A stretch of DNA of 64,000 nt, taken from the NCBI GenBank assembly GCA_015152515.1, contig SUTV01000005.1, forward strand, positions 1 through 64,000, in the 5' to 3' direction. Positions within the stretch are counted from its first letter, which is position 1, and each line of letters begins with the position of its first letter. Below, piece by piece: positions 27,584 to 56,285 of this stretch. The position numbers were made by a program, and so were the translations under genes. The notes below the pieces were generated by a model. That model was given only the letters and a program-made list of their open reading frames with translations, did no database searches and was not told the origin of the DNA. The DNA is from Cyanobacteria bacterium SIG29. GTDB lineage: Bacteria; Cyanobacteriota; Vampirovibrionia; Gastranaerophilales; Gastranaerophilaceae.

Positions 27584-28474
27584 ATGTATAAATTACTTAT
27601 TAATAAATTTAAAAAAAATAAAGAAAAAAATATAAGGACTTCTTTTTTAATTCCTTCTTTAATTGGGTCCTTTGTTTTTATATTTTTGCCGTCGATTTTT
27701 TCTTTTTTTCTAAGTTTTTTTGATTGGAATTTAATTAATGATTTAAAATTTGTTGGGCTAAATAATTATTTAAATTTATTATCATCAACAGAGTTTTGGT
27801 TCGTTTTTAAAAATACGATTGTTTATTCGTTGGCTGTTACTTTGTTAGGTACGCTTATCCCTTTAGTATTAGCATCAATTATTAATTCAAAAATTATTTG
27901 TAAAGAGTTTTTAAAAACCTCTTATTTCTTACCTTTTATTACTCCAATGATTGTTATTGCTATGATTTGGCAGTGGATTTTTGATCCAAATATTGGTTTT
28001 ATAAATTTACTTTTAAAGTCTAATATTCAATGGTTATATGATACGAAAACTGCTATGTTTGCTTTAATTATTGTTTCTGTTTGGAAATTAATTGGATATA
28101 ATATGGTGATTTTTTTATCAGGGTTATCGTCGATTAGTTCTCAAGTTTATGAGGCTTCAAAAATTGATGGTGCTAATAAAGTTAAAACCTTTTTATTTAT
28201 TACGGTTCCTTTATTAACACCAACAATCTTTTTTGTTTTATTGATTACAACCATTAGTTCTTTTCAGGTATTTGATTTGATTTATTTAATGACGGAAGGT
28301 GGTCCTGAAAATTCAACAAATGTTCTTGTTTATTGGTTGTATAAAAATGCATTTGAATTTTTTAATATTGGGAAAGCATCTGCTATTGCTTATGTGCTTT
28401 TTGTGTTTATTTTAATTTTAACGATAATACAGTGGAACTTAAGAAAAAAATGGGTTACTAATGAAGTTGATTAA
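27584..28474 (+). CDS. ABC sugar-transport permease (MalF/UgpA type)
   Basis: The 296-residue protein has six membrane segments and the permease EAA loop EASKIDGANKVKTFLFITVPLL, which docks the ATPase. FLPSIFSFFLSFFDW is the usual first segment. No second permease, ATPase or binding protein is adjacent; a family-1 binding protein lies at 15726. The start is uncertain: ATG 27584 is chosen, but in-frame TTG 27539 would add 15 residues. It overlaps the converging 88-residue gene by 4 bases. Confidence 0.88.
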   Translation: MYKLLINKFKKNKEKNIRTSFLIPSLIGSFVFIFLPSIFSFFLSFFDWNLINDLKFVGLNNYLNLLSSTEFWFVFKNTIVYSLAVTLLGTLIPLVLASIINSKIICKEFLKTSYFLPFITPMIVIAMIWQWIFDPNIGFINLLLKSNIQWLYDTKTAMFALIIVSVWKLIGYNMVIFLSGLSSISSQVYEASKIDGANKVKTFLFITVPLLTPTIFFVLLITTISSFQVFDLIYLMTEGGPENSTNVLVYWLYKNAFEFFNIGKASAIAYVLFVFILILTIIQWNLRKKWVTNEVD

Positions 28475-28737
28475 GCTAATACAGTTAGTAAATGTTGTTT
28501 TGGATCTGTTTCTTTTGTTCCATAAAAACTATCGATTTGACTTTTAATATTTAAAGCTTCTTGTGTAACATCTGGTCTGAAAATTTCATTAATTTTGTTT
28601 TTTATTGATGAAACAAGAGTATCTTCTCCAGCTTTTATAATATATGCTGTTTTGTATTCTGGATAAGGAACAGCTGTTCTTTTAAAGCTTTGTTTGTTAT
28701 AATTATTATTTATATTATTGATTGAGTTAATTTTCAT
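28471..28737 (-). CDS. Small protein with N-terminal SFK tag, 88 aa
   Basis: The protein begins MKINSINN, stays Asn-rich, then has QSFKRT at residues 16-21. This matches the M-x-I-x-x ... S/A-F-G/K tag of five other proteins in the window. The remaining 65 residues are polar and probably helical, with no known domain. A strong GAGAGAGG ribosome site precedes the ATG. Function unknown. Confidence 0.65.
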   Translation of the reverse strand: MKINSINNINNNYNKQSFKRTAVPYPEYKTAYIIKAGEDTLVSSIKNKINEIFRPDVTQEALNIKSQIDSFYGTKETDPKQHLLTVLA

Positions 28738-29178
28738 TTTAAACCTCTCTCTCAGTTAAAGTGTTTTTCATACACTTTATTTTATGTATTTATTATGAAA
28801 TAGAAAAATTTTTTTGTCAATAGATATTTTTTAAAAAACTTTACAATTGCTAAAACCAATAATTGCAAGCGTTATAGCATTAAGTGTAAAACTAGCACTT
28901 ATTATCTTAAAAAAGTATTAGCCATTTGTATTATTTTTGTTTAGTCCGATTGGCGAATTGTTAAAAACTCATTTATTTCGTTATATATAAGTATCTTTTT
29001 CATACTTCCAACTATTCTTAATTCCAGACAGTAGGGCATTTTTTGCCCTCTTTTTTTGTGTTTTTTCTGTAGGCAGAGTAAATAAAATGAACGAATGCCG
29101 AAGTATCGCCGAAAAAACGAATGTGAATTTTGTGTAAGCAAAATGTAGTGAGTTGCTTGAAGGCGTGAAAGAAAACTT
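28738..29178. other. 440-base non-coding region
   Basis: No convincing gene. It contains a TTGTCA hexamer at 28814 with no well-placed -10, a plus-strand terminator at 29033, and from about 29080 a stretch richer in G and C than its surroundings. A small RNA ending at the terminator, or simply the trailer of the ABC permease transcript, are both possible. Confidence 0.4.
29033..29057 (+). terminator. Intrinsic terminator without an obvious gene
   Basis: The stem AGGGCA/TGCCCT is followed by CTTTTTTT on the plus strand only. The nearest upstream plus-strand gene ends 560 bases earlier. Confidence 0.75.
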
Positions 29179-29739
29179 TTAATTATATTTATTTTGAACT
29201 TTATTAATGTCGTTTTCGCAATAATATAAAAAAGCTTCAACGCTGTTTTTTAATACCTTATTTAATTCTTCCATTTGTTCATTTGAGAAGTTTTGAAGAA
29301 CGAAATCCTCTGATTTCATAAAGTTTGGTTGTGGACCTATTCCTATTTTAAGTCTATCAAATACTTGGGTTTGAGCATGTTTTATTATTGATTTAATTCC
29401 GTTATGACCGCCATCAGAACCTTTATTTCTAAATCTGATTTTGCCCAGTTCAAGTGAAATATCGTCATAAACAATGAATAAGTCGTTTATATCTATCTTA
29501 TAAAAATTTTTCAGTGCTAAAAGTGCTTCACCAGATAAGTTCATGTATGTTTGAGGTTTAACAATCCAAATGGCTTCGTTTTTATATGTTGTTTTACAAA
29601 GTTCTGATTTAAATTTTGGTTCGTTTGTGAAATTAGAACCAAGTTCATTAGCTAACATATCTGCAAACATAAAGCCAACATTATGTCTTGTTTTTTCGTA
29701 TTTAGAACCAAAGTTACCTAAACATATTAATAATTTCAT
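29179..29739 (-). CDS. pth: Peptidyl-tRNA hydrolase
   Basis: The 186-residue enzyme shows the Pth signature: LLICLGNFGSKYEKTRHNVGF with the catalytic His, KPQTYMNLSG, VYDDISLELGKIR, and GSDGGHNGIKSI. It frees tRNAs from aborted peptides. I chose the ATG at 29739 since AAGGA precedes it and the family starts there. It has the usual length. Confidence 0.96.
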   Translation of the reverse strand: MKLLICLGNFGSKYEKTRHNVGFMFADMLANELGSNFTNEPKFKSELCKTTYKNEAIWIVKPQTYMNLSGEALLALKNFYKIDINDLFIVYDDISLELGKIRFRNKGSDGGHNGIKSIIKHAQTQVFDRLKIGIGPQPNFMKSEDFVLQNFSNEQMEELNKVLKNSVEAFLYYCENDINKVQNKYN

Positions 29740-29843
29740 AGCATGCTTATCCTTTATTTTTAAATTATCCCATAATTTTATTCTACTTACCAATTAAAAA
29801 GTTATAAAAATAATTAATCATATATAAAAATAGGAGATATAAA

Positions 29844-30410
29844 ATGGCTATGAAGAAAAACTCTATTATTGTTATGAAAAGCAGTGAAATGCTTGCTAAT
29901 TTTTTAGAAAATTCTAATTTACATAAAAAAGATTTTGCGCAAATGATTGGCGTAACTTTATCTTATGTTTACAACTTAATTGATGAAACAATTCCATTTT
30001 CTACAAGAAGTACAACGCTAGAGCGTATTGCAACTGTAATGGATATTTCACCTGAAGAATTTTCTGAATATAAAATTCCTCAAGATCCTATTGTATTTGA
30101 TGAAACAACAGAATTTATAAAAGAAAAACAAAAGGAAAATAATTTATCTACAGTTCAATTATTAAAAGCTTTTCCAAGAAAGCAGAGATTAGATATTGTT
30201 GATATATTAAGAGGTGCTAGACCTTTGCCACTAGATTGGAAAGAGGTTAGTGTAATTGCACAAGTTCTTAATGTATCAGAAGAAGAAATTTATGAATATT
30301 GGGAAGCAAGATTAAAACAAGTATTACAAAATGCTGGATTCAATTTTGAAAGTAATTCTGAACTTGCAAAACAAATCTTTAATTCTTGTCGTGACTTTAT
30401 TCAAAAATAA
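29844..30410 (+). CDS. HTH (XRE-like) DNA-binding protein
   Basis: The 188-residue protein has an XRE-type helix-turn-helix at about residues 14-70 (FAQMIGVTLSYVYNLI, then ERIATVMDISPEEF). A second related helical region at about 105-155 ends in VIAQVLNVSEEEIYEYW, so it may carry two HTH units. AGGAG precedes the ATG. There is no sensor domain. It is probably a transcription factor, target unknown; it stands alone and ends 5 bases from the converging phosphoesterase gene. Confidence 0.8.
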   Translation: MAMKKNSIIVMKSSEMLANFLENSNLHKKDFAQMIGVTLSYVYNLIDETIPFSTRSTTLERIATVMDISPEEFSEYKIPQDPIVFDETTEFIKEKQKENNLSTVQLLKAFPRKQRLDIVDILRGARPLPLDWKEVSVIAQVLNVSEEEIYEYWEARLKQVLQNAGFNFESNSELAKQIFNSCRDFIQK

Positions 30411-30414
30411 TAAT

Positions 30415-31239
30415 CTATACTTTTACATTTTTTACGGTAATTTTTACATTTTTAGGTGATAAGTATGAATTACTATCATATTCAATTCTAATTGATTGGT
30501 AGGAATGAGGTGTATCTTTAAACGCTGGTGCGTTAATATGTCTTATTCCTTTTTCATCAGTTTGAATTAAATTTTGATGATAATGTCCTGCGCTAACTAA
30601 TAGAATATTATTGTATTTATGTAGTAGTTGTTTATATTTTTCGCTGTTTAACAGAGATAATTTATATTCTTCTCTTGGCGGAAATAGTGGGTTATGTTGA
30701 AATATAATAAACATTCTTTTTGGATATTTTATTAATAATTTTTCTAACCAAACTAATTGTTCTTCAGAAATTTCACCATGTTTAGATGGTGCAAAATCAG
30801 GTGTATTATCTAAAACAACGCATATAAAATCTTTATTTGGTTTAAAATAGTAGAAATTTTTTCCAGAGTCTTGTTCTTTATTAAAAGTAGAAACAACATC
30901 TAAATAAGTTTCTTTTTCAAGTCCACCTAGTGTGTGTGCATCTCTTTCACCAAATGTAAGATAATAAGGTTGTCGAATTGAATGAATAGAACGCATAAAA
31001 CCTATTATGTTTTCTTCATTAGATTTGTCTATGTTATCTCCAAGAAAAACAACAAAATCTGGGTAATTTTTTCTAAATGATAAAGATAGGAAATGCAAAT
31101 TTCTTTCAATTTCAGTATTGTTTAATGTATAGTGAATATCGCTAACTTGTGCAAATTCAAGTATATCTGCACAAGCAAAACCTTGCATTGTTAATAATGC
31201 AAAAAGTGCAAATAATATATTTTTTATATGTTTATGCAT
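30415..31239 (-). CDS. Exported calcineurin-like metallophosphoesterase
   Basis: The 274-residue protein has a signal peptide (about residues 1-25) and then metallophosphoesterase motifs: VSDIHY, FLGDNID, FQHNP and the final SAGHYHQN (GHxH). The third motif, normally GNHD/E, reads FGERDAH, so the usual Asn and His are replaced; activity may be altered. Substrate unknown. Its start overlaps the MshEN-like gene by 8 bases. Confidence 0.82.
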   Translation of the reverse strand: MHKHIKNILFALFALLTMQGFACADILEFAQVSDIHYTLNNTEIERNLHFLSLSFRKNYPDFVVFLGDNIDKSNEENIIGFMRSIHSIRQPYYLTFGERDAHTLGGLEKETYLDVVSTFNKEQDSGKNFYYFKPNKDFICVVLDNTPDFAPSKHGEISEEQLVWLEKLLIKYPKRMFIIFQHNPLFPPREEYKLSLLNSEKYKQLLHKYNNILLVSAGHYHQNLIQTDEKGIRHINAPAFKDTPHSYQSIRIEYDSNSYLSPKNVKITVKNVKV

Positions 31240-31471
31240 TTTCTAATCTTTTCTGTATGAATTTTTGCACTTTAAGTGCTTGATTTAAATCTTTCTTACT
31301 AATTACTTTCATAGAAAGAAAAATTTCTCCCATTGGTATTTTTTGAAATCTTTGAACATCAAGTACCATAGAAAGATGGAAAAGATTTATTTTTCCAGCT
31401 TCAAGTAGTATCTCACCTAATCTATGGCAAGACACATCTTTCCAGTCATCAATGTTATAAAGATTCTTCAT
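31232..31471 (-). CDS. MshEN-like small protein, 79 aa
   Basis: The sequence matches the N-terminal domain of type II secretion/pilus ATPases: RLGEILLEAGKIN, then IPMGEIFLSMKVISKKDLNQAL. Such MshEN domains can bind cyclic di-GMP or serve as docking modules; here it is free-standing with no ATPase. The ATG has no ribosome site but a perfect TATAAT 6 bases upstream. It overlaps the phosphoesterase gene by 8 bases. Confidence 0.7.
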   Translation of the reverse strand: MKNLYNIDDWKDVSCHRLGEILLEAGKINLFHLSMVLDVQRFQKIPMGEIFLSMKVISKKDLNQALKVQKFIQKRLENA

Positions 31472-31477
31472 ACAGAA

Positions 31478-31483
31478 ATTATA
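31478..31483 (-). promoter_or_regulatory. -10 box for a leaderless MshEN-like mRNA
   Basis: A perfect TATAAT on the minus strand ends exactly 6 bases before the ATG at 31471. Confidence 0.55.
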
Positions 31484-31509
31484 TTAGATTAATACTAATA
31501 AATCAATTA

Positions 31510-31917
31510 TTATGCCCAGAATTCTAATTCATTGCATAATCCATTGTCATAACCTTCAACTTGTGACTTCATTGTAGGTTTGTTTAGAGAACCACCATCA
31601 TATGCGTCAAGTCTGCTAACCATGCCAGCTTGAGCACCTTTTGATTCACTAACTTGATGAGAACCACTAACGGTGTTTGTGCCATTGATTCCGTCTACAT
31701 GTGCAGATTCAGAAGTTTTGTTTGAACTTGTAATTCCCAAGAAATTTACATTGTTTGAAGCAGATGCAGCTCCTTCATTAGCAAATAAGCTTGTATCTGT
31801 GCTTCCTTCGCTTTTCCCATATGATGTATCTATGCTGCTACCTTCAACAGGAACACTTCCTGTCTTAGATTGATACTCATATGGAATTTTTCCAACTCCA
31901 CCAATTAAATTAGTCAT
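31510..31917 (-). CDS. Ser/Gly/Asn-rich hypothetical protein, 135 aa
   Basis: No family recognised. It follows an AAGGAGAAA ribosome site. The product is low in hydrophobic residues and rich in Ser, Gly, Thr and Asn, so probably disordered, with a sharp change to NELEFWA at the C-terminus. No signal peptide, cysteine pair or repeat is visible. A surface or secreted filler protein is possible; nothing decides it. Confidence 0.55.
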   Translation of the reverse strand: MTNLIGGVGKIPYEYQSKTGSVPVEGSSIDTSYGKSEGSTDTSLFANEGAASASNNVNFLGITSSNKTSESAHVDGINGTNTVSGSHQVSESKGAQAGMVSRLDAYDGGSLNKPTMKSQVEGYDNGLCNELEFWA

Positions 31918-32057
31918 AGTTTCTCCTTATTACTTATATAAAGTAATTTTTTGGTTTTAAATTGCAGAAAAAAATTTATATTTTACATTTGTTACATAAA
32001 AATATTTTAAAAATATGCTTGAAATAAAAAAATTATGTGTTTTAATAAATATTGTGA

Positions 32058-32131
32058 GCGTCCGTAGCTCAGCTGGATAGAGCATCTGCCTTCTAAGCAG
32101 AGGGTCGAGCGTTCGAATCGCTCCGGGCGTA
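32058..32131 (+). tRNA. tRNA-Arg (anticodon TCT)
   Basis: A full cloverleaf is visible: acceptor GCGTCCG/CGGGCGT (with two G-T pairs), D-arm GCTC..GAGC, anticodon stem TCTGC/GCAGA with loop CTTCTAA giving anticodon TCT, and T-arm GAGCG-TTCGAAT-CGCTC. CCA is not encoded. Confidence 0.93.
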
Positions 32132-32139
32132 AATTTTTT

Positions 32140-32166
32140 AAGACTGGTATATCCAGTCTTTTTTTT
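32140..32166 (+). terminator. Intrinsic terminator after tRNA-Arg
   Basis: The stem AAGACTGG/CCAGTCTT is followed by a run of T. Confidence 0.85.
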
Positions 32167-32220
32167 ATGAAAACGAAAATCTATAATACCAATGAGTTTT
32201 ATATAAACATTGATTTAAAT

Positions 32221-33927
32221 TTAAATTGTATATCTTATAATATTTTTTGCTGTTTTATTTACAGTATTTTTTATAGAATTTTTAATTATTGATTCTTCAA
32301 TAGTTTTTATTGGAATTCCATTAATTTGTTTTAATTTGTTACTAACAAGTTTATGTGTCATTTTGGTGTTTACATTTACAATAGACATTGATAATACTAT
32401 GCTAAATAGTCCAATTTCTAATGTTCCATTTTCAAATGACTCTTTAATGTTTTTTTCTACTTTATGCTTCCAAACTTCAAATTCATACTCATATTTTTCA
32501 ATTTTCGCATTAATAATTTCTTTAAATATTTTTTTCTTATCAGCAAAAGAATCCGATTCTTTTGCTTTTGTTTTTAAATTATGTATTTGGTTTAAGTGTT
32601 CGTGTCTTTTACTTTTTATTTCTTCTCCTGAATATTGATATTGATTAAAATATGTTTCGCTATTTCTACTTTTAGATAACGCAGCAAAGCCTTCAACCGC
32701 TTCAATATTGCTTTTTATACTATCTAAAATTTCAAATTTTGAATAGCTATATTTTGGGGGAAGGTTTACTTCAAATTCTTTTTCTTTAAAGTAATGATAT
32801 CTGCTTTCTGTAGCTATTGTATATTCTAGAAGTTCTTTTTTCTTTGCTTCAAATTTTTTAGATTTATTTGCAACAGTAGTATAATTTCTAGTTTGTCTTA
32901 TTATAAATTTAGATATGTCAGTTAGTAATGGTTCTAATTCTTTTTCTAATTCATCTATTCTTGAAGTTGATTCTTCTTTATAATCGCCATATTTTAGGTC
33001 GTAGTATTTTTTTAATTTATTAAGATATTGTGTATCTTCATTAAATAGATATTTATCAGCGATTAATCTACTATACATTGCTGCAGCGGTGTAGTTAAAT
33101 GCTGGTGTTTGCATCATTTCAAATACATCACCATTAAATGTTTTAATGATTTTTTTATCTTCGCTATTTTGAATATCTATAAGTATTATTCTTTTAACGT
33201 ATTCATTTCTTTTTTCTTGTGATAATGAATTTCTAATAATTGCTTCTTTAGAGTGTGATAGTTCGTGAGAAATAGTTGAAGAAATTTCTCTGCTGTTATT
33301 TTTAATATTTTCTGGGTATATTGTTACTCTATGTTTTTTAGAGTCATATGCACCAAGTTCTGTGTGATTTTCACTAGTTATATCATTTACAAGTGGACTA
33401 AAATTTTGTGAATTGTATAAATAGCTTTTATCTTTGTAAATGATTTCTAATTCGGGCTTAGTTTCTGATGGTAAATTTAATCTTGCCCAATATTCTTCAA
33501 AATATTTTATTGATTCTATAAGAATTTTTTCTAGAGGTTTTTCTTCTTTTAAAGCATCTTTAACACTAATTTGAGTGCTAGGGATTGGATTTAATTGATT
33601 ATTTGTAAAGTTAATATTTTGAGAATTTGGTATAAATTCATTAAATGTATTAGACTTTGCAGTGTATGTTATTTTTTGTGAATTAGTTTGAGGATTTGTT
33701 GATGCTGTAGTTGAAGCTGTTGTTGAGGCAGTAGTTGAAGCTGTTGTTGATGCTGTAGTAGAGGCAGTAGTTGAAGCTGTAGTTGAAGCGGTTGTTGAAC
33801 CAACTGTACTTGCAACACTTGAAGCAACAGTACTTCCTACTGTTGATGCTACAACTAAACCGTTCTTTTTTTCTTTTGGTTTAATATGTTTCGTTTCATG
33901 TGATATATAAAAATTTATTAAATTCAT
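32221..33927 (-). CDS. Large protein with TAST repeat and HExxH motif
   Basis: The 568-residue protein has no signal peptide. Residues 27-77 are a low-complexity Ala-Ser-Thr-Val tract built on a TAST unit. HELSH at 221-225, within SSTISHELSHSKEAI, is a zinc metallopeptidase HExxH motif; a downstream acidic residue could be the third ligand. Residues 230-460 are charged and helical, probably coiled. A weakly hydrophobic stretch (GLFSIVLSMSIV) lies near residue 515. The Thr-rich tract resembles a glycosylated or flexible linker. A cell-associated or secreted peptidase is the best guess; no family is named with confidence. Confidence 0.7.
   Translation of the reverse strand: MNLINFYISHETKHIKPKEKKNGLVVASTVGSTVASSVASTVGSTTASTTASTTASTTASTTASTTASTTASTTASTNPQTNSQKITYTAKSNTFNEFIPNSQNINFTNNQLNPIPSTQISVKDALKEEKPLEKILIESIKYFEEYWARLNLPSETKPELEIIYKDKSYLYNSQNFSPLVNDITSENHTELGAYDSKKHRVTIYPENIKNNSREISSTISHELSHSKEAIIRNSLSQEKRNEYVKRIILIDIQNSEDKKIIKTFNGDVFEMMQTPAFNYTAAAMYSRLIADKYLFNEDTQYLNKLKKYYDLKYGDYKEESTSRIDELEKELEPLLTDISKFIIRQTRNYTTVANKSKKFEAKKKELLEYTIATESRYHYFKEKEFEVNLPPKYSYSKFEILDSIKSNIEAVEGFAALSKSRNSETYFNQYQYSGEEIKSKRHEHLNQIHNLKTKAKESDSFADKKKIFKEIINAKIEKYEYEFEVWKHKVEKNIKESFENGTLEIGLFSIVLSMSIVNVNTKMTHKLVSNKLKQINGIPIKTIEESIIKNSIKNTVNKTAKNIIRYTI
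33697..33850 (-). repeat. 12-bp tandem repeat encoding TAST units
   Basis: About twelve imperfect 12-bp units encode alternating Ala-Ser-Thr/Val residues. The unit preserves the frame, so slippage would change tract length without stopping translation. Confidence 0.8.
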
Positions 33928-34016
33928 ACTTCAGCCTAAACTTATCCTTATAAAACCTTTAAAGCTAAAAATTTGATATTATATAAACATGTTTTTACAA
34001 TTGTTAATTTTTTATA

Positions 34017-34025
34017 TGGTAAAAT
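34017..34025 (+). promoter_or_regulatory. Extended -10 for a leaderless thioesterase mRNA
   Basis: TGGTAAAAT is an extended -10; its hexamer ends exactly 6 bases before the ATG at 34032. No ribosome site lies between. Confidence 0.55.
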
Positions 34026-34031
34026 TTTACT

Positions 34032-35243: not shown

Positions 35244-35329
35244 ATTTTCTCCTTGAATAGTTTTATGACAATTTTACAATATTAAAAATTATTTTAAAAG
35301 TTTAATAAAATAAATGTTTACATCTGAAA

Positions 35330-36298: not shown

Positions 36299-36304
36299 AT
36301 TGTA

Positions 36305-36310: not shown

Positions 36311-36346
36311 GACAAAAATAAAATAATGGTGAATACTAAATAATAA

Positions 36347-38425
36347 ATGACAGAAATAGATAAAAATTTTTATAATATTTTTAATTTAGGTGCGTATTTC
36401 AAAAATGATGGAAATGCAGTATTTAGGTTGTTTACTTTCTCTGATACAGTGAGTGTTGTCGTTGAAGTTAAATCTGTTCATCAACCTATTAAAACTTTTG
36501 TATTAAATAAAGTTAAAAAGTGTATTTGGGAATTAGAACTTGAATCTGGAGTTATCAATGAGGGTGATAGATATAGGTTCGTTATTACTCGTAATAACAA
36601 AGTTGTTACTGTAAAAGACCCTTGCTCAATGTATCAAGATTCTTATTTTAAATGGTCTATCATATATAATCATAATAATTTTAATTGGAATGATGAAGAG
36701 TGGATTAGTGGATTAAATTCTAGGCGTGTTAGTCGCTTATCATCATTCAATAATATGTCTTGTGTTGATGATTTAAGGATTTATGAACTTCATATTGGAA
36801 CTTTTACAGATGAAGGTACTTTTCTTTCTGCTAAATCAAAATTAAAAAAAATATCTGAAGAACTTAATTTTAATGCTATTGAAATTATGCCTGTTGAAAA
36901 TACATATTCATTTAATTGGGGTTATGATGGTGTTGATAAGTTTGCTCCAAATCATACATATGGAACTCCAGATGATTTAAAAGAATTAATTGATTATGCT
37001 CACAGTTGTGGTTTAAATGTAATTATGGATATTGTACCTAATCATTTAGGACCAGATATTGCAACTCTTCACCAAACTGGACCTTATATAGAAGGTGTAA
37101 ATTGTTTTGGATATAAATTTAATTATGAAGCAGATGATGATTGTTCTATTGTTCGTGATTTTATTGTAGGAAGTGCTTTAAATTGGGTTTTAAATTATCA
37201 CTGTGATGGTTTACGCGTTGATATGACTAAATTTATGTGCAGTGATTATACTATGAAGCAAATGGTTGCACAAATTAATTACTATGCTCCTGACGCATTT
37301 ATGATTGCCGAAGATGGTCGTGATAATGATTCTAGGGTTACTAGACCATTTCCGCAGATTGAAGTTGAAGCTAATCAATGTAATCATTCTAAGTTTATTA
37401 ATCAAATTAAAAGTAATGATATTTCATTATCTTCTTTAGGATTTGATACAGAGTGGGATTTCCCTTTTCATAAACAAATTGCTTCATCAATATTAGGTTC
37501 TTGGGATTGTAGAATTAAAAATCTAGTTAATTTTGACCAATCTTTAACTGCAGCACAAACTAGAGTTAAATATGCTATGAGCCATGATGAAATTGGCAAT
37601 ATTGATGGAACTCGTTTAATTTCTAAAATAATGGTTAATAAATTAAAGTTAAATGATAAAGTTTGCGAATGCTGTCATTCTTTAAAGTGCAAAATTGCTG
37701 CGCATGCAGCTCATAATATTCTTGTTGCTTTATTAGATGGTTCTTTAGAAAAAATGTCTAATGATGATAGACTAAATTTCTATAAGAAAAATTCATTAAC
37801 TTTTGATTTTCCAATTGAAGATATTAAAAAAGCTTACATTCAAGCCGTTAATATGCATAAATTAGCTATTGGTAAGATTTATTCTATTCCTGGTCCTAAA
37901 ATGGTATTTCAGGGTGATGAATCAGCTAATATTTCATATTTTAAATTTTTTAGAAAGTTTTCTACTGGACCTGAACCTTACCTAAGAGATAAAGGTTATG
38001 AACCTGGAAAACCAGCATTTTTTGATTCTAAGCTTTCTGCTGTAAAAGTTTGTGAAAAATATTCTTATATTAATAAATCTGTTGAAACTTTTGTTTCTGA
38101 TTTAAATAAATTATGTGATGACAATATTGCTTTATCATCTGGTAATATTGAAAAAACATTTATTAATGAATCAGCAGATACACACGCAATTCATTGTCGA
38201 AGAATTTATAATGAAGTTTTTTCTATTTCAAATTTTTCTTCTCAATCATATTTAAAGAATTTTGGTTTAATGTTTCCTAAAGGAAAATGGAGAGAAATTT
38301 TTAATTCTGATGAAATTAAATATGCAGGCGAAGGTATTTATTTGAATTCTAATCAAATAAAGGATAATTACTCTTATATTTCATTACCTGCATATGGTGT
38401 TATTTTCTTTGAAAAAATAATTTAA
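36347..38425 (+). CDS. Cytosolic GH13 enzyme (GlgB/TreZ-like)
   Basis: The 692-residue protein has an N-terminal beta-sandwich (CBM48-like, about 10-100), then a complete GH13 barrel: IMDIVPNHLGPD, CDGLRVDMTKFM (nucleophile), FMIAEDGRDN (acid/base) and YAMSHDEIGN. GYDGVDKFAPNHTYGTPDDL and the NHLGPD motif resemble malto-oligosyltrehalose trehalohydrolase; the C-terminal domain resembles glycogen branching enzyme. No signal peptide, so it acts on internal glucan. Branching versus trehalose release cannot be decided; no treY or glgA is nearby. Confidence 0.85.
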   Translation: MTEIDKNFYNIFNLGAYFKNDGNAVFRLFTFSDTVSVVVEVKSVHQPIKTFVLNKVKKCIWELELESGVINEGDRYRFVITRNNKVVTVKDPCSMYQDSYFKWSIIYNHNNFNWNDEEWISGLNSRRVSRLSSFNNMSCVDDLRIYELHIGTFTDEGTFLSAKSKLKKISEELNFNAIEIMPVENTYSFNWGYDGVDKFAPNHTYGTPDDLKELIDYAHSCGLNVIMDIVPNHLGPDIATLHQTGPYIEGVNCFGYKFNYEADDDCSIVRDFIVGSALNWVLNYHCDGLRVDMTKFMCSDYTMKQMVAQINYYAPDAFMIAEDGRDNDSRVTRPFPQIEVEANQCNHSKFINQIKSNDISLSSLGFDTEWDFPFHKQIASSILGSWDCRIKNLVNFDQSLTAAQTRVKYAMSHDEIGNIDGTRLISKIMVNKLKLNDKVCECCHSLKCKIAAHAAHNILVALLDGSLEKMSNDDRLNFYKKNSLTFDFPIEDIKKAYIQAVNMHKLAIGKIYSIPGPKMVFQGDESANISYFKFFRKFSTGPEPYLRDKGYEPGKPAFFDSKLSAVKVCEKYSYINKSVETFVSDLNKLCDDNIALSSGNIEKTFINESADTHAIHCRRIYNEVFSISNFSSQSYLKNFGLMFPKGKWREIFNSDEIKYAGEGIYLNSNQIKDNYSYISLPAYGVIFFEKII

Positions 38426-42543: not shown

Positions 42544-43173
42544 ATGAGTATATCTGCAGTTAATTGTACACCAATTAAACCTCAAGTATCTTTTGGTATG
42601 GCAGAAGGTGCTGATGATGCTAGAAAAATTATTGCTTTATCAAATGACTTAAATGATTCATTTACTAAAAAAGATAATGAAGGTAATAATATTAAAGGAC
42701 CTTTAGCATTAGGTATTTCAATATTAGGTGCTGCTGCTTCTATGTTTGCACTTGGTGTTGGTGGTTCAAAAGCTGCTTTAGCTGGTGCTAAAAAATTAAA
42801 TTCTAAATTCCCAGCATTAAAAGAAACTATTGCTACAAATGGTAAAAAAGCTATAGATTTTGTATCTAAAAAAATGCCTAAAGTTCCAGCAAAATTAACT
42901 GAAAAAATTAGTCCAAAAGTTAAAAACTTTGTTTCTCAAAATTCAGTTAAAGCAAAAACTTTTGGTACAGGCTTAGTAGAAAAATACGGTGCTGAAAAAT
43001 TATTTACAGTAGGTACTGGTGTTTTAACAGCTGCTGCTTTAGCTCCAGATATCGTAAAAGCTGATGCTAACGGTGATGGTATCGCTGATATCGCAGATAA
43101 AAGAATTAATGCATATTCAAGTGCTTTAAAATCAGTTGGTATTTTTGAAGAAATTGTTAATGTATTAGTATAA
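42544..43173 (+). CDS. Tagged protein with EF-hand-like loop (first of pair)
   Basis: The 209-residue protein starts MSISAVNC and has QVSFGM at residues 14-19, the shared tag. A hydrophobic Gly/Ala block lies at about 58-80. Near the C-terminus DANGDGIADIAD (174-185) matches the 12-residue calcium loop of EF-hands or dockerin-like modules. The next gene is a paralogue of the same length. An AAAGG ribosome site precedes the ATG. Calcium loops point to an extracytoplasmic place, yet there is no classical signal peptide. Confidence 0.7.
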   Translation: MSISAVNCTPIKPQVSFGMAEGADDARKIIALSNDLNDSFTKKDNEGNNIKGPLALGISILGAAASMFALGVGGSKAALAGAKKLNSKFPALKETIATNGKKAIDFVSKKMPKVPAKLTEKISPKVKNFVSQNSVKAKTFGTGLVEKYGAEKLFTVGTGVLTAAALAPDIVKADANGDGIADIADKRINAYSSALKSVGIFEEIVNVLV

Positions 43174-43313: not shown

Positions 43314-43943
43314 ATGAATATTAACTCAAATATTTCTGCAAAATTTACATCAACTCCGGCATTTGGTAAAGACTTTAGTGTTGAAGATGCTGAAAATATC
43401 GCTAGATTATCTGGTGAATTAAATGATAGCTTTGAAACAAATAATGTTAATGATGACGAAAAAGCTAAGAAAAAATCTGCTGGTCAATTCCTAGCATCAA
43501 TTGGTGGAGCTATAGCAACAGCATTTGTTTTAGGAAAATGTGGTGCTAGTAAAATATTAACTGCTTTCCCTAAATTAGCTGGTAAAATTACTAATTTTAT
43601 CCGCAAAGGTGCTAATTTTGTTAGAAATTTTGCAGATGATGTTGTTAATGGTGTAAAACTTAAAAAAGGTGGTAAATTCACTAAATCAGCAGCTAAAAAA
43701 ATTGCTAATTTAGAGAAAAAAGCTAGAGAAATATATATTAATAAAAGAAATAAATCAAGTGCTGAAGAAGTAATTAAAAATGCAGTTGGTGTAGCTGCAA
43801 TGGCAACCGTTGTACCTCAAGTTGCAACAGTTGATGGTAACAATGATGGTGTTTCTGATTTAGCACAAAAAGAAATTTCTGCATATCAAAGCTTTTTACA
43901 AAAAAGTGCAATAATTGAAGGTATAACAGATACTTTTGCATAA
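43314..43943 (+). CDS. Tagged protein with EF-hand-like loop (second of pair)
   Basis: Also 209 residues, starting MNINSNIS with the tag STPAFGKD at 13-20. It aligns with its neighbour at DAENIARLSGELNDSF (residues 24-39), at the hydrophobic block (60-75) and at the C-terminal loop DGNNDGVSDLAQ (174-185). The last loop position is Gln instead of an acid, so calcium binding may be weaker. The ribosome site is GAAAGG. A tandem duplication with diverged centres. Function unknown. Confidence 0.7.
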   Translation: MNINSNISAKFTSTPAFGKDFSVEDAENIARLSGELNDSFETNNVNDDEKAKKKSAGQFLASIGGAIATAFVLGKCGASKILTAFPKLAGKITNFIRKGANFVRNFADDVVNGVKLKKGGKFTKSAAKKIANLEKKAREIYINKRNKSSAEEVIKNAVGVAAMATVVPQVATVDGNNDGVSDLAQKEISAYQSFLQKSAIIEGITDTFA

Positions 43944-45527: not shown

Positions 45528-45533
45528 ATAGTT

Positions 45534-48494: not shown

Positions 48495-48495
48495 T

Positions 48496-49710: not shown

Positions 49711-49765
49711 CAAAAAAAATAATTTTTTTGTTTTGTATTATTGATCTTTTTTTTAGGAGTGTTTT

Positions 49766-51181
49766 ATGAAAATTTCATCAATTAATTATTCTATGGCATT
49801 AAATAATACAAATTCATCATTTAAAGCTAAAAAGACTAGTTCTAGACCAGTAGCAAATGGCATGAATGGTGAAAAACTTGTTTTAAGCGGTAATGCATCA
49901 AAATATTTTGAGTTATCAAATAATGTTTCTAATAAAAAAGTTGGTTCTAAATTCATTTTAAAACCCAAAATGCCACAATATAGAGATTTAAATATTTTAA
50001 TTACTCTTGATTCTGTTATAGAAGGTGATGATTTTAAAGTTCATGTATCTAAACCAAAAAATCCTAGTTTTTCTGGTAGATTATATGGAAGTATAAGAGA
50101 ACTTGATGGCAAAAGAGATTATAAAATGGAAGGCGAATATATTCGCTTTTGGACAGATGGAATGCATAAACATGTTGAACAAAATTATGCTGATAAGGTA
50201 TATGCACCAGAGTTAAAAGATGATTATAATTTCTACATTCCGAGTGATGGTGATGGAACAAGATATAAAGATATTACTACTCTTCAAGGTTCTGTGACAA
50301 AACCAGCATCAGATATTCCTGCTTATATGAATGGTAAGCAAATGTCTTTAGTACAAAGTGTTATTACTAATTTCACTAAAACCGGTAAATTAGATAAAAT
50401 GCTTGATTTTGTACGTGTTGAACCGGCTAAAGGTAGTGCATATGGATTTTTGGAAGGTTTAAGACAGGGCAAAATACACACAAATAAACCATTAGTATTT
50501 AGTTGGGGAGATAATTTCTCTGATATAAATATTTCACGATTAATGAAAAATCATGAAGATTCAAATTCTGGTTTTACTGTAACAGTATTACCTATTGATA
50601 AGGCTAGAACAAAGACTCTAAGTATTGTGAAAACAGATAATGTTAATACTAGAAAAATCGATAAATTTGTAGAAAAACCACAAGATGATGACTTTATCGA
50701 AAGTTGTGTTTTACCACAATTTGGTGAAAATATGTGTTTATCTGCAGTTGGTCCATATATTTTATCATCTCAAGCATTAGAGTGGATTAAAGAAAATTAT
50801 ACTGCTGATCCTGAAAGCTTTTTAAATCCAGATAAAGGATATGATTTTTCATCTATGATTGTTGCTCCGATGTTAGAAGCATTTAATAATGGCGAAATTT
50901 TAGATAAAAATGGCAAACCAATGCAAATGAAGTTTGATATTATTTCTGATACAGAAACATGGTCAGATTTAGGTTCACAAAAAGATTTTACTAAGGCAAT
51001 GAAAGATATTAGAGATGCAAAATATTTATATCTTCCTTGGGAAATGAAGTCATCATTAGCAGATAATATTGATGATACAGATAATATAACATTTAATGCA
51101 AAATCTAATGAACTTCTTCATAAAATGCTTGGTGAATTAAATGCAGAAGCTTCAAATATCGTTGCTTATTGCAAAGAATAA
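49766..51181 (+). CDS. Tagged GlgC-like nucleotidyltransferase, divergent
   Basis: The 471-residue protein starts MKISSINY and has NSSFKAKK at 16-23, the shared tag, followed by a unique region to about 150. The nucleotidyltransferase-like part has SDGDGTRYKDI (160-170), where GlgC has AGGxGTRL, and GSAYGFLEGLRQG, LVFSWGDNFSD (the VLSGDH-like step) and KIDKFVEKPQ. These fit the sugar-1-phosphate nucleotidyltransferase family, but several Gly positions of the NTP loop are changed, so activity is uncertain. An AGGAG ribosome site precedes the ATG. Confidence 0.72.
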   Translation: MKISSINYSMALNNTNSSFKAKKTSSRPVANGMNGEKLVLSGNASKYFELSNNVSNKKVGSKFILKPKMPQYRDLNILITLDSVIEGDDFKVHVSKPKNPSFSGRLYGSIRELDGKRDYKMEGEYIRFWTDGMHKHVEQNYADKVYAPELKDDYNFYIPSDGDGTRYKDITTLQGSVTKPASDIPAYMNGKQMSLVQSVITNFTKTGKLDKMLDFVRVEPAKGSAYGFLEGLRQGKIHTNKPLVFSWGDNFSDINISRLMKNHEDSNSGFTVTVLPIDKARTKTLSIVKTDNVNTRKIDKFVEKPQDDDFIESCVLPQFGENMCLSAVGPYILSSQALEWIKENYTADPESFLNPDKGYDFSSMIVAPMLEAFNNGEILDKNGKPMQMKFDIISDTETWSDLGSQKDFTKAMKDIRDAKYLYLPWEMKSSLADNIDDTDNITFNAKSNELLHKMLGELNAEASNIVAYCKE

Positions 51182-51190
51182 CATTTAAGC

Positions 51191-51196
51191 TATAAT
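51191..51196 (+). promoter_or_regulatory. -10 box for a leaderless proB mRNA
   Basis: A perfect TATAAT ends 7 bases before the ATG at 51204. Confidence 0.5.
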
Positions 51197-51203
51197 TATG
51201 TCT

Positions 51204-52325
51204 ATGGACATTAAAGCAAACAAAAGAGTAGTATTTAAATTCGGTACGAATGTACTTAGGAATGATGATAAAGAAATTTCTTTATCTAGAATCTATTCGT
51301 TTATAGAAGATATCTCAAAATTGCATAAACAAGGGCTTGAAGTAATTATAGTTACATCAGGTGCTGTTGGTCTTGGTGCAAAAAAGTTAAATGTTGATTC
51401 TTCTGAAAGTTTATCAATAAAACAAGCTTGTGCTGCTGTTGGTCAAAGCCAATTAATGTCAATTTATGAAGATGGGTTCGGAAAATATTCTATAAATACT
51501 GCACAAATACTTTTGACTGAAGATGACTTCACAAATAGAGTTAAATATTTAAGTTTGAATAATGTTTTAAATACATTATTAGAGCTTAGAGTAATTCCTA
51601 TTATCAATCAAAATGATACAGTTTCTACTTCTGAGTTAGAACAAATATATGGTGTAAGTTTTTCAGATAATGATAAATTATCTGCGCTTGTTGCTAGCAA
51701 GTTAGATGCCGATTTATTAGTTATTTTATCTGATATTAATGGTTTATATAATGACAATCCTAAGGAAAATCCAGACGCAGAATTAATTTCAGAAGTTAAA
51801 GAATTAACAGAAGAAATTGAAGGCTATGCAAGTAGTGCTTCAAAAGGCGGTCGTGGTGGTATGATAACAAAATTGCAAGCAGCAAAGGTTGTTACTCATT
51901 CTGGGGGACACGTTTTAATTGCAAATGGGAAATTACCTCAAGTTATTAGACGATTATTTAGTGGGGAAAAAATGGGTACTACATTTTATCCAGTCGAACA
52001 ACTTTCTCAAAAGCGTCGTTGGATTGCCTATGCAACAAATATTACAGGACAAATTGTTGTTAATTCAGGTGCAAAAAAAGCTATTACTAAAGAAAATAAA
52101 AGTCTGTTAGCTATTGGTATAACTGCTGTAAATGGAATTTTCGATAGAGGAGATGTTATTTCAATATTAGATGAAAATAATATTGAAATTGCTCGTGGTA
52201 TTGCAAATTATGATTCAGATGACTGTTCTAAAATTTTAGGAATGCATTCAGATAATATTTATGAAGCATTAGGTCATAAAAATTATGATGCAGTTATTAC
52301 AAAAGATAATATAGCTTTGATATAA
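51204..52325 (+). CDS. proB: Glutamate 5-kinase
   Basis: The 373-residue protein has the amino-acid kinase domain (VVFKFGTNVL, VTSGAVGLGAKKL, PIINQNDTVS, LSDINGLYNDNP) and a C-terminal PUA domain (about 275-365). It starts proline synthesis. Two in-frame ATGs exist at 51198 and 51204; the -10 box fits a start at 51204, and the first would lie almost on it. proA follows after 9 bases with an AAGGAG site. Confidence 0.95.
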   Translation: MDIKANKRVVFKFGTNVLRNDDKEISLSRIYSFIEDISKLHKQGLEVIIVTSGAVGLGAKKLNVDSSESLSIKQACAAVGQSQLMSIYEDGFGKYSINTAQILLTEDDFTNRVKYLSLNNVLNTLLELRVIPIINQNDTVSTSELEQIYGVSFSDNDKLSALVASKLDADLLVILSDINGLYNDNPKENPDAELISEVKELTEEIEGYASSASKGGRGGMITKLQAAKVVTHSGGHVLIANGKLPQVIRRLFSGEKMGTTFYPVEQLSQKRRWIAYATNITGQIVVNSGAKKAITKENKSLLAIGITAVNGIFDRGDVISILDENNIEIARGIANYDSDDCSKILGMHSDNIYEALGHKNYDAVITKDNIALI

Positions 52326-52334
52326 GGAGTTTTT

Positions 52335-53609
52335 ATGACAAGCGTTATAGATATTGCAAAAAATGCTAGTTTTGCAGCAACTCAAGCATTACAGTTATCA
52401 ACTGAAATTAAAAATAATGCTCTTTTAAAAATTGCTGATTTATTAGAACAAAATAAAGACAAAATTGTTAAAGCTAATATTATTGATTTAGAAAATGCTA
52501 AAGACCTGTCTATGTCTATGGTTAATAGATTAAAACTTGATGACAATAAAATTAGAGATATGATTCAAGGTGTTAGAGATATTTCTTTATTACCTGACCC
52601 TATTAATAAAGAAATTTGGTCAAAAGATATAGCTGAAAATATGACATTAAAAAAGGTATCTTGTCCAATTGGCGTTATTGGTGTTATTTTTGAGGCTCGT
52701 CCTGATGTAATTTCTCAAATTTCATCTTTGGCCATTAAATCTTCTAATGCAGTAATTTTAAAGGGTGGAAGTGAAGCAGTTAATACAAATAAAATAATAT
52801 TTGAATTAATTAATGAAGCACTTTCTTCTGTTGATGGTTTCCCTCAAAATATGATAAATTTAATTTTTACTAGAGATGATGTAAAACAGCTTTTAGATGC
52901 TGATAGCTATGTTAATTTAATTATTCCTCGTGGTTCTAATGCTTTAGTTAAATATATTAAATCTAATACTAAAATCCCTGTTTTAGGACACGCTGATGGA
53001 ATTTGTCATATTTATATTGATGAATTTGCTGATATTAATAAAGTTTTAGATATTTGTATTGATGCAAAATGTCAGTATCCAAGCGCTTGTAATGCTGTTG
53101 AAACAATTTTGATAAATGAAAAAGTTGCTTTATCTTTTATGCCACAATTAATGTTTAAATTTATTGAAAATGGCGTTGAGGTAATCGGTGATGAAAACAT
53201 ATTAAAAATAATTCCAAATGTTAAACTTGCTACAGATGATGATTGGAAAACAGAGTATGGTGATAAAATTGTTTCAATAAAAGTTGTAAAAAACATTGAT
53301 GAAGCAATTAATCATATTAATAAATATGGTTCTGGTCACACAGATTGTATTATTACAGAAAATAATGAAAATTCAGATAAATTTATGATGTTTGTTGATT
53401 CATCTGGTGTATATAAGAATGCATCTACACGCTTTGCAGACGGTTTTAGATATGGTTTTGGTGCAGAAGTTGGTATTTCTACTAATAAAACTCATGCACG
53501 CGGTCCTGTTGGTTTAGAAGGGCTTACAATATATAAATATAAATTATTTGGAAATGGTGATATTGTAGCTGATTTCGCCTCTGGAAAAAGACAATTTATA
53601 AAATCTTAA
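52335..53609 (+). CDS. proA: Gamma-glutamyl phosphate reductase
   Basis: The 424-residue enzyme has the ALDH-like fold with VIFEARPDVISQISSL, ILKGGSEAVNTNK, the catalytic Cys in YPSACNAVETIL, and FGAEVGISTNKTHARGPVG. It makes glutamate semialdehyde, the second proline step. Normal length. It shares a transcript with proB. Confidence 0.96.
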   Translation: MTSVIDIAKNASFAATQALQLSTEIKNNALLKIADLLEQNKDKIVKANIIDLENAKDLSMSMVNRLKLDDNKIRDMIQGVRDISLLPDPINKEIWSKDIAENMTLKKVSCPIGVIGVIFEARPDVISQISSLAIKSSNAVILKGGSEAVNTNKIIFELINEALSSVDGFPQNMINLIFTRDDVKQLLDADSYVNLIIPRGSNALVKYIKSNTKIPVLGHADGICHIYIDEFADINKVLDICIDAKCQYPSACNAVETILINEKVALSFMPQLMFKFIENGVEVIGDENILKIIPNVKLATDDDWKTEYGDKIVSIKVVKNIDEAINHINKYGSGHTDCIITENNENSDKFMMFVDSSGVYKNASTRFADGFRYGFGAEVGISTNKTHARGPVGLEGLTIYKYKLFGNGDIVADFASGKRQFIKS

Positions 53610-53683
53610 CATTTGATTACAATTACGCAATCTACATTCTTCAGTTGTTTTACTTAATCAGGTAAATAGTAAGGAAGAATATT

Positions 53684-54181
53684 ATGATTTCAAATGTTAG
53701 CAGTTTAAATGTATTAAAAACTTCAAATTGTAATCCACAATCAACTCCTGCATTTGGTATGGCAGCGCCGACTAAAAAAGGTTTGAAGTTGTTACAAGAA
53801 CAAGGTATGCAATTTGTTAAACATCAAAATAATAGTATGTATGCAAAACAAGGCTTATTACAAAAATCTGCAATTGCAAAAGAATTAGCATCAGGTGAAT
53901 TATTTACTGACCTTTGTAAAGTATATGGATGTTCTGGCGATGCATTAAGAAATGCTGATTTCATTAAATTCCAAATATTAACTAAAAAAGGACAAAAAGC
54001 TGTTAAAAAAGTTTCTGAAGATGTTTTAAAACAAGGCAGATTAGATTTATTAGATAATAACTTCTTAAATAAATATTTATCTCGTAAGAAAACAAGAGCA
54101 TTATTAGATTTATGCAGACCTTATATGGAATCAGATAGATATGCTCAATTAATTGGTTATCTTCAAATGTACACAAAATAA
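53684..54181 (+). CDS. Small tagged protein, 165 aa
   Basis: The protein starts MISNVSSLNV and has STPAFGMA at 20-27, the tag, identical over STPAFG to the protein at 43314. The rest is basic and helical with no known domain; VYGCSGDALRNADF near residue 85 is a short recognisable stretch. An AAGGAAG ribosome site precedes the ATG. Function unknown. Own transcript, ended by a terminator. Confidence 0.65.
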   Translation: MISNVSSLNVLKTSNCNPQSTPAFGMAAPTKKGLKLLQEQGMQFVKHQNNSMYAKQGLLQKSAIAKELASGELFTDLCKVYGCSGDALRNADFIKFQILTKKGQKAVKKVSEDVLKQGRLDLLDNNFLNKYLSRKKTRALLDLCRPYMESDRYAQLIGYLQMYTK

Positions 54182-54194
54182 TAATTTTATATAT

Positions 54195-54228
54195 AAAAAA
54201 GACCTAAGTTTTTCTTAGGTCTTTTTAT
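54195..54228 (+). terminator. Intrinsic terminator
   Basis: The stem GACCTAAG/CTTAGGTC is followed by TTTTT after the 165-residue gene. Confidence 0.85.
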
Positions 54229-54242
54229 TGTTTATATTTAAA

Positions 54243-54277
54243 ATAAAAAAACACCCTACTTTCGTAGAGTGTTTTTT
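54243..54277 (-). terminator. Intrinsic terminator
   Basis: The stem ACACTCTAC/GTAGGGTGT (one mismatch) is followed by a T run on the minus strand, downstream of the large GlgC-like gene. Confidence 0.8.
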
Positions 54278-54290
54278 GTTTAATTAATAA

Positions 54291-56285
54291 TTATTTATTA
54301 ATTGAAATTAAGCCTTTGTTGATGTATTGACCAACGATTGATGGAGATACTCTTTTTGCTTTTGGTACAGCCATAACTTCGCCATCGATATAGTATTTAG
54401 ACTCAATTTGTGATTTTTGTTCAGGAGTTGAAGCAACTAAACCTGTTTGAGTATTGATACTATTTAATACATGAGCTCTTTCAAAGTCTTCTAATGGGAA
54501 TGCATTGCTAGCAATTTGCATTGTTGTGTGATATAAAGCGTTTAATGTACCGCAATCTGCCCAAGGTTCATCTGTTGGAACTGCAATAATTTTTTGGTTA
54601 GCAACAGCTTCGTGAGCTTCTCTAATAGCGCTCATTGGGATTTGTTTTGGATCAGCGTCAACAACTTTTGCAATGTCAGCTCTCATTTCATTTAAGTTAT
54701 CTTTTTGAGTTAAAGACATTAAGATTGGCACGAAAGTTTTTGACCAGTCTCTTGGTTCTTTACCTTTACCAGCAGGGAAGAATGGTTCTAATGTAGCTAA
54801 TGCTTTGAACGCTTCTTTGCTTACTGAGAATTGGAATGTGTTTGTTAAACAGTTACCATTTTTCTCATAACCAGCTGGAATAGTTTTTGGTTTTTCAGCA
54901 AATTCAAGAATTTCGTTGTCTTTGCCTAATTTCATAATACCAAAGTTACCTTTAGCATCTTCTGAGCTAACTTCTTTAGCAATCATAACGATAGCAGCAT
55001 CACCTGTGTTCATGATGTCAGCCATTTTTCTTGATGCTTCAGTCATTCTAGACATTGAATCGTTAGGGAATAATGTTAAGCTGTTTCTTCCTTCACGTTC
55101 CATTTTGTTGTATAAATCAACTGTGAAACCACCGTTACCTTTATTTACACCAGATTGATTTAAATAGAATTTAACATTTTTGCCGATACCGAATACGCCT
55201 TTAGAACAATCTAATAAACCAGCGTTGTGTAATGAAATAAATGTTGTTTCCATTGGTGTTAAGCCAGTTGCTGTTCTAAATACACCTTTTGTTGATTGTG
55301 CACCATTTGCTTTTCCGTGGAAAATACCATCAGAAGAAGCATTTGTGTATTCAGCACGAGAACCAAAACCGCCAGCTAACATAGCTAATTGTGTATTTTT
55401 AGCATCTGGGTTAGCTACGAATTGGTCAAGAATGATTTCACCTTTATTAATTTTATTTTCAAATGTTCTAATACTATCAATAATTTCTGGAACAAATCTT
55501 CCATCTTCCATACCGATAACTATTTCAGTACCTTGACCAATTGATGGCATGTGTACTCTTTCACGAACTTTTTGAATTTCTGTTGTGAATGGAACAAAGT
55601 CTCTATTTGAAGCTTTATCTGCACGAACATTTAATCTAGCAGTATCATCGATATGTTTAGAGAATGTACCAGCGTTAGTTAATAAAACGTTTTGACCATC
55701 TTCAACAACAGCCATTAATTTACCTTTTGTATTTAATACATAAGCTTTTTCTTCAGCTTTAGGGTCTTGAGTAATTCTAATTAATTGATCTAAAGGTTTT
55801 GATCTGTCAGCAGGTGTATCAACTGGTCTTGGTTTACGAACTGCCATTTCGTACATAATACCATTTGGAGTTCTTTTAATTTGAGTTCTTGCATCAACGA
55901 TTTCTTTTGGAGTTGATGAAATTTCAATATCTGTTTTAATAGCGTCGTTATTGTTTGGTAATTCATCATAATATTCATTTACTAATGAAGAAACATTAGC
56001 TCTAGAACCAACTGATTCACCAGCTTTTCCTTTTTTAGGATCGCTACATGTTGTCATTGGTTGGTTTAAATCTTTGAATGCAGCAGCCAAACTTTTACCA
56101 AAACTTACTGTTTTAGCAGTTTGAATACCATGAAATGCTTGATATGCATTAACCAAGCTTGTTGCTGTATAATTACGCGCAAAAGCTGGTGTTGATGAAT
56201 ATTGTTGAGTATTGTTTGCAACATTTCTCTCTTTTGTAACCATTGGGTTTTGGTTTACAAGTCCTACTCCTATTTTTTGAATCAT
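54291..56285 (-). CDS. Large tagged GlgC-like nucleotidyltransferase
   Basis: The 664-residue protein starts MIQKIGVG and has SSTPAFARN at 30-38; a second SFGK lies at 61-64. About 295 residues precede the nucleotidyltransferase domain. That domain begins TQLAMLAGGFGSRAE (near 299-312), close to the GlgC loop, and has NFGIMKLGKDNEILEFAEKP and PWADCGTLNALY, all typical. So it likely uses NTP and a sugar phosphate, as in ADP-glucose synthesis. The C-terminus (YIDGEVMAV) may be a partial left-handed helix. AAAGGAT precedes the ATG. No signal peptide. Confidence 0.78.
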   Translation of the reverse strand: MIQKIGVGLVNQNPMVTKERNVANNTQQYSSTPAFARNYTATSLVNAYQAFHGIQTAKTVSFGKSLAAAFKDLNQPMTTCSDPKKGKAGESVGSRANVSSLVNEYYDELPNNNDAIKTDIEISSTPKEIVDARTQIKRTPNGIMYEMAVRKPRPVDTPADRSKPLDQLIRITQDPKAEEKAYVLNTKGKLMAVVEDGQNVLLTNAGTFSKHIDDTARLNVRADKASNRDFVPFTTEIQKVRERVHMPSIGQGTEIVIGMEDGRFVPEIIDSIRTFENKINKGEIILDQFVANPDAKNTQLAMLAGGFGSRAEYTNASSDGIFHGKANGAQSTKGVFRTATGLTPMETTFISLHNAGLLDCSKGVFGIGKNVKFYLNQSGVNKGNGGFTVDLYNKMEREGRNSLTLFPNDSMSRMTEASRKMADIMNTGDAAIVMIAKEVSSEDAKGNFGIMKLGKDNEILEFAEKPKTIPAGYEKNGNCLTNTFQFSVSKEAFKALATLEPFFPAGKGKEPRDWSKTFVPILMSLTQKDNLNEMRADIAKVVDADPKQIPMSAIREAHEAVANQKIIAVPTDEPWADCGTLNALYHTTMQIASNAFPLEDFERAHVLNSINTQTGLVASTPEQKSQIESKYYIDGEVMAVPKAKRVSPSIVGQYINKGLISINK

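Follow-up and report, generated by a model that had tools for sequence, protein, structure and literature searches.

An N-terminal tag on unrelated proteins of a Gastranaerophilales bacterium is a portable signal that may direct type III export

Proteins of unrelated folds in Cyanobacteria bacterium SIG29, a gut bacterium of the order Gastranaerophilales (class Vampirovibrionia), whose members are cyanobacterial relatives that do not photosynthesize, begin with a common segment that we call the tag. Six carriers lie in a 64,000-nucleotide stretch of contig SUTV01000005.1 (assembly GCA_015152515.1; hereafter the window), which forms part of a 1.54 Mb draft genome that is 82.5% complete. The tag is a two-part structure in which a small-hydrophobic start block (M-x-I/V-polar-x-I/V) is followed by a linker whose length varies and then by an aromatic anchor, or second element (S/T/N-F-G/K). 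It is genuine and extends beyond the window. The original prediction, made from the six window proteins, had taken the segment to be a portable N-terminal signal, and that view is now well supported: the tag shows enrichment at N-termini but none within proteins, precedes unrelated folds and is missing from other copies of the same enzymes. We propose that it acts as an address label whose most likely job would be export and, with a probability of roughly 45%, that it is a type III export signal read by a flagellum-like apparatus.

We defined the start block alone (regular expression ^M.[IV][SNAQT].[IV]), separately from the second element ([ST]F[GK] within residues 8-60), and counted both in a sample of the bacterium's own genome consisting of the window and 20 other stretches, to which two more were added later (504 kb in total, 33% of the genome). 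Gene totals for this sample vary between analyses (400, 428 and 423) because length cut-offs and gene-caller training sets differ. The start block was found at 21 of 400 N-termini compared with 10 of 2369 internal Met residues, and it opens 22 of the 428 proteins once the added stretches are included. The second element was present in 11 of these 22 proteins and in 12 of the 406 others (Fisher p=4e-10). When an internal window of the start-block proteins was examined instead, 1 of 19 had it, although nine of these 19 have it N-terminally, and 1 of 22 had it in the last 53 residues. The strongest proof that the tag is a real module is this association, since neither element entered into the definition of the other. 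Approximately 5% of the sampled proteins have the start block and approximately 3% have both elements.

The tag was also abundant across the family, using a set for which loci of the family (f1) were kept and those of f2-f15 left out. After reduction of redundancy from 82 start-block proteins to 63, a looser form of the second element was present in 47, whereas 500 rounds of residue shuffling gave 22.8 on average and never more than 34. Written as a DNA pattern, the start block matched 143 times in 89 family genomes, versus 24 times for a reversed control, and 18 versus 21 times in 56 genomes from other families of the class. The regular expression for the start block fails to capture three of the window's six proteins, and we left these cases as they fell; it also lets in likely false positives, such as sigma-factor-like and permease-like proteins, which were kept in the counts. 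That only three of the six window proteins have the strict block would fit a chance likeness in an AT-rich, Asn-rich proteome, but the start-block and shuffle counts, the rejected independence of the two elements and the excess of the DNA pattern over its reversed control led us to reject that explanation, to which we assign virtually no probability.

An open reading frame check found all six window genes at the positions and with the starts originally given for them. The tag comprises residues 1-19 of an 88-aa protein encoded at 28471-28737 (tag at 28681-28737, minus strand). It comprises residues 1-18 of a 209-aa protein with a calcium-loop-like segment (42544-43173; tag at 42544-42597, plus strand), residues 1-19 of the tandem paralogue of that protein (43314-43943; tag at 43314-43370, plus strand; 32% identity) and residues 1-20 of a 471-aa GlgC-like nucleotidyltransferase (49766-51181; tag at 49766-49825, plus strand). 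In a 165-aa protein of unassigned function, for which a Pfam search returned no family (53684-54181; tag at 53684-53758, plus strand), the tag comprises residues 1-25 and has a looser start block, and in a 664-aa GlgC-like nucleotidyltransferase (54291-56285; tag at 56178-56285, minus strand), the loosest case, it comprises residues 1-36. The Phe of the second element lies at residues 18, 17, 17, 19, 24 and 35, within the range of 17-35 noted initially. The shared start that had been described is strict in the proteins at 28471, 42544 and 49766 and nearly so in that at 43314, whereas those at 53684 and 54291 conform more loosely, with Ile at position 2.

Other parts of the original prediction need qualification. 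The six proteins were called unrelated, but 42544 and 43314 are paralogues, which brings the number of independent carriers down to five. The calcium-type loops that were thought to fit an extracytoplasmic destination come from this one paralogue pair only. Both predicted nucleotidyltransferases were confirmed by Pfam (NTP_transferase, PF00483; E=1.7e-11 for 49766 and 2.5e-6 for 54291), and in sequence both resemble GlgC, with NCBIfam glgC scores (35.7 and 38.2 bits, respectively) that are far under the cut-off of 424.9. Orthologues of 49766 were found in 6 of 37 relatives at 56-62% identity. The 664-aa protein repeats the second element downstream of its tag (VSFGK), and an initial contig scan with this protein found no relative.

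Among the 47 tagged proteins with both elements, the Phe is located at residues 10-55 (median 18). Relative to other N-termini, the linker is enriched in Asn (3.1-fold), Gln (2.0-fold), Pro (1.6-fold), Thr (1.4-fold) and Ser (1.2-fold) and depleted in Glu (to 0.25), Asp (0.53) and Leu (0.39); it is also Tyr-rich and Met-poor. In tagged relatives, the ends of the tag are better conserved than the linker. The tags of 42544 and 43314 have only M1, I3, F17 and G18 in common, and M1 and I3 are invariant in all seven sequences of the 49766 family, where the second element is kept less strictly (QSFS, NSFQ and NNFY besides SSFK). A hydrophobic stretch of the kind found in signal peptides (15-residue mean hydropathy >1.6 in the first 45 residues) was present near the N-terminus of only 1 of 47 tagged proteins, versus 84 of 406 others, and a Sec or Tat signal peptide was therefore rejected.

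By sample, the start block was present in 21 of 423 genes of the bacterium's own genome, 12 of 254 in genome G177 and 1 of 124 in genome G059. It was present in 4 of 128 genes in the sample from family f7, two or three of which resemble real tags, in 0 of 107 in f6, where there is one relaxed case, and in 0 of 45 in f2/f3. It was missing from all 424 genes sampled in another four families of the class, the individual samples giving 0/197 (f12), 0/101 (f9), 0/40 (f14) and 0/86 (f8); alternative gene calling of f8 gave 1/90, without the second element, the two f8 counts differing because gene-caller training sets and length cut-offs differ. The genomes of f12 and G177 have the same GC content (0.34), yet f12 has no start block, indicating that GC content does not explain the distribution of the tag. 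The tag is undescribed in the publications on N-terminal motifs, secretion and flagella in Gastranaerophilales, Melainabacteria and Vampirovibrionia that our search covered, most subscription papers being outside it.

These features also bear on whether the segment has a sorting role at all. It could instead be a leader that promotes the start of translation or stability, or else a shared start module that recombination has spread. AT-rich starts generally aid initiation, and shuffling of 5' ends could give portability. The codons vary within the degenerate pattern, however, the Phe falls beyond the initiation zone, the 32%-identical paralogues share the ends of the tag and not the linker, and f12 lacks the start block at equal GC. 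We therefore consider a leader or recombined start module very unlikely.

To characterize the cargo, we searched 20 further tagged or tag-like proteins from the bacterium's own and two related genomes against Pfam (E up to 0.01). Nine had no family. The families found were GH13, GH77, a second large GH13, a GAPDH C-terminal domain, adenylate kinase (ADK), DEAD/DSHCT helicase, AAA ATPases and DHH, with a weak kinase-like and a weak acetyltransferase match. The tagged GH13 is GlgB-like and the tagged GH77 MalQ-like, and in the tagged GH13 and GAPDH the catalytic motifs appear intact, as judged by eye. In G177 (L126:8931-16277), five tagged or tag-like genes form a run; the final four are tandem genes of a single strand, and two of the five encode AAA domains. 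L054:10918-16743 encodes a tagged 1941-aa protein with no Pfam family.

Five enzyme kinds, ADK, GAPDH, GH13, GH77 and GlgC, also have an untagged relative in the bacterium's own genome. The tagged and untagged copies are 45% identical for ADK, 36% for GAPDH and 27% for GH77, and an untagged GH13 (GlgB/TreZ-like) encoded in the window at 36347-38425 (plus strand) is 40% identical to the tagged GH13 at L052:524-2914. The untagged GlgC is 26% identical to 49766 and scores 481 bits with NCBIfam glgC, above the cut-off. Sequences of the untagged ADK and GAPDH begin directly at the enzyme, as do those of three normal GAPDHs of relatives, which have no tag. The accessory GAPDH, by comparison, has a tag of 23-32 residues before the normal GAPDH start in three of three genomes, one of them from another family of the order, and the tagged ADK has 58 residues before its P-loop, versus 7-8 in all 28 others (29 of 30 loci were readable). 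The segment is kept in the orthologues seen of the accessory GAPDH and of 49766; with this and the enrichment at N-termini, neither of the two outcomes that had been named as refuting the original prediction occurred. In the cases tested, tagged forms are patchy among relatives: besides the 49766 orthologues, tagged GAPDH occurs in 3 of 38 genomes and tagged ADK in 1 of 38, some ADK being present in 35. Judging from these sequences, the tagged enzymes are probably extras that would be sent elsewhere than the normal copy.

One such destination could lie within the cell. If the tag targeted its carriers to a cytoplasmic body, such as a glycogen granule, shell compartment or condensate, no export would be involved. 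Several tagged enzymes act, by family, on alpha-glucan or its precursors (GH13, GH77 and the GlgC-like proteins), and an Asn/Gln-rich linker with an aromatic anchor could serve as a sticker. The tagged set, however, also includes a DEAD helicase, a DHH protein, AAA ATPases, ADK and GAPDH. We regard a cytoplasmic body as a serious rival to type III export, albeit a rather improbable one.

Genes for a candidate export machine occur in most genomes of the family. FlhA was matched in every one of the 89 family genomes (strongly in 88; at only 2.8e-48 in G111), in all 38 relatives and in 29 of the 56 genomes from other families of the class; FlhB and FliP were found in 86 and 87 of the 89 family genomes, respectively. 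Flagellin was found in 19 of the 89, with no match in the other 70. Most of the family therefore keeps a flagellum-like export apparatus without flagellin. The best FlhA match is ~1e-215 in genera without flagellin, and nearly all members of genera with flagellin have a second, stronger match (~1e-260). The bacterium's own FlhA is 75-96% identical to at least 80 records, many of them from Candidatus Gastranaerophilales. Its own type III secretion system (T3SS) locus (L055:9882-19484 and L112:379-2311, contig C13) encodes FliI, FliH, FliF, FliE, and rod-type and hook-type proteins, all identified with Pfam, and a putative FliG that was read by eye only, Pfam giving no family. Earlier genome papers disagree, calling these bacteria flagellated or non-motile (PMC3787301, PMC5877343).

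A second FHIPEP-like protein of ~490 aa in the bacterium's own genome (G000:C13:396917-397912) aligns with the FlhA profile solely over the profile's C-terminal half (~321-652) and, by our reading of the matches, also occurs in 38 of 38 relatives. A small tagged protein (74-82 aa) is encoded near the T3SS locus in several species (L055:5402-5635, and also L133, L142, L144-L147, L149, L150, L153, L154 and L161). The FlgB-like rod protein of one relative (L139:4592-4936) starts with MTINPIG and fits the start block; the other 14 listed FlgB-like proteins do not.

We rank type III export first because the tag has a type III-like composition, an FlgD-like start block, no hydrophobic core and a Chlamydia-like cargo. 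In the mechanism that we propose, the tag would be read as a type III secretion signal by an apparatus composed of FlhA, FlhB, FliP, FliI, FliH, FliF, FliE and rod proteins that most family genomes keep, no flagellin having been found in them, and exported glucan enzymes would act extracellularly or within a partner cell. We infer that the tag would be unstructured, that the apparatus would read it and that tagged proteins would be exported. The early export signal of FlgD consists of a hydrophobic 2-SIAV-5 and a gate recognition motif, 36-FLTLL-40 (Bryant et al. 2022, PMC8983047). The tag likewise has a polar N-terminus with small hydrophobics near the start, followed by a Phe-based element, and the hydrophobic start signal, I/V at positions 3 and 6, is present by regular-expression definition in the 22 of 428 start-block proteins. 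Injectisome effectors have polar N-termini with an abundance of Ser, Thr and Pro and few acidic or Leu residues (Arnold et al. 2009, PMC2669295). The tag is similarly polar, Pro-enriched and poor in acidic residues and Leu, and lacks a hydrophobic stretch, but it differs in having a shared motif, in the dominance of Asn and Gln rather than Ser and in that Lys is not depleted. In Chlamydia, glycogen enzymes are secreted by a T3SS (Gehre et al. 2016, PMC4829429; CT295, PMC9251005). As in that case, an N-terminal signal precedes enzymes of alpha-glucan and hexose-phosphate metabolism, though here export is predicted, tagged and untagged copies coexist, the bacteria are unrelated and the apparatus is of the flagellum type. 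Flagellum-derived, non-flagellar T3SSs also keep the export gate without flagellin (Abby and Rocha 2012, PMC3459982), whereas here flagellar rod-type and FliE proteins are retained as well.

Several observations count against type III export. Three of them, the mismatch to FxxxPhi with the often short spacing, the missing tag in the sampled T3SS-bearing genomes outside the order and the scarcity of tagged proteins in G059, were given equal weight, so that we hold this reading only at the probability stated at the outset. First, unlike the FlgD gate motif, the second element is [ST]F[GK] and not FxxxPhi: a hydrophobic residue at F+4 was found in 10 of 47 tagged proteins, against a background of 29.8%, and we rejected the second element as a gate motif of the FlgD type. 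Second, FlgD requires at least 19 residues between its two signals (PMC8983047), while the spacing here is often <19, with the Phe at residue 25 or beyond in only 19 of 47, and the carriers are enzymes instead of rod or hook subunits. Third, type III signals have been described as a composition and not as a fixed motif (PMC2669295), such that the tag, if it is a type III signal, would be unusual in having a readable motif. Fourth, T3SS-bearing genomes outside the order (f9, f12 and f14) had the start block in 0 of 338 genes, and within the family G059 (genus g15) has FlhA and a single start block in 124 genes, without the second element; apparatus and tag thus do not track each other, and having a T3SS does not predict the tag across the class. 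Finally, FlhB and FliP were not found in the bacterium's own 82.5% complete draft.

Some of these observations would be accommodated if the tag were an export or surface-anchoring signal read by an undescribed, order-specific route other than the flagellum-like T3SS. The tag was seen solely within the order, whereas FlhA also occurs in other families of the class, the second element is unlike FxxxPhi, and the duplicate-enzyme evidence for a separate role fits equally. No other candidate machine was found, though secretion systems beyond the contractile injector were not surveyed. None of the 23 family genomes tested has the contractile-sheath injector (PF04984 in 5 of 38 overall), and a contractile injection system was therefore rejected for the family. 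An undescribed route is, like the cytoplasmic body, a serious rival to type III export, but we consider it unlikely.

A more far-reaching reading, which we regard as less likely than not, would be that the flagellin-less apparatus has become a general exporter with a variable set of tagged substrates, among them a second set of alpha-glucan and energy-metabolism enzymes, moving part of sugar-polymer metabolism outside or into a partner cell. If these enzymes are exported, they would represent a second, independent case besides Chlamydia of sugar-storage enzymes leaving a bacterium. The tag also bears on why most Gastranaerophilales keep flagellar export genes without flagellin. Because it can be read from sequence, it allows proteins that are likely exported or sorted to be listed for an order whose members live in animal guts and have been studied chiefly through metagenomes.

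Elsewhere in the window, a 568-aa protein with no Pfam family (32221-33927) has a Thr-Ala-Ser repeat near its N-terminus and a metallopeptidase-like HELSH motif.

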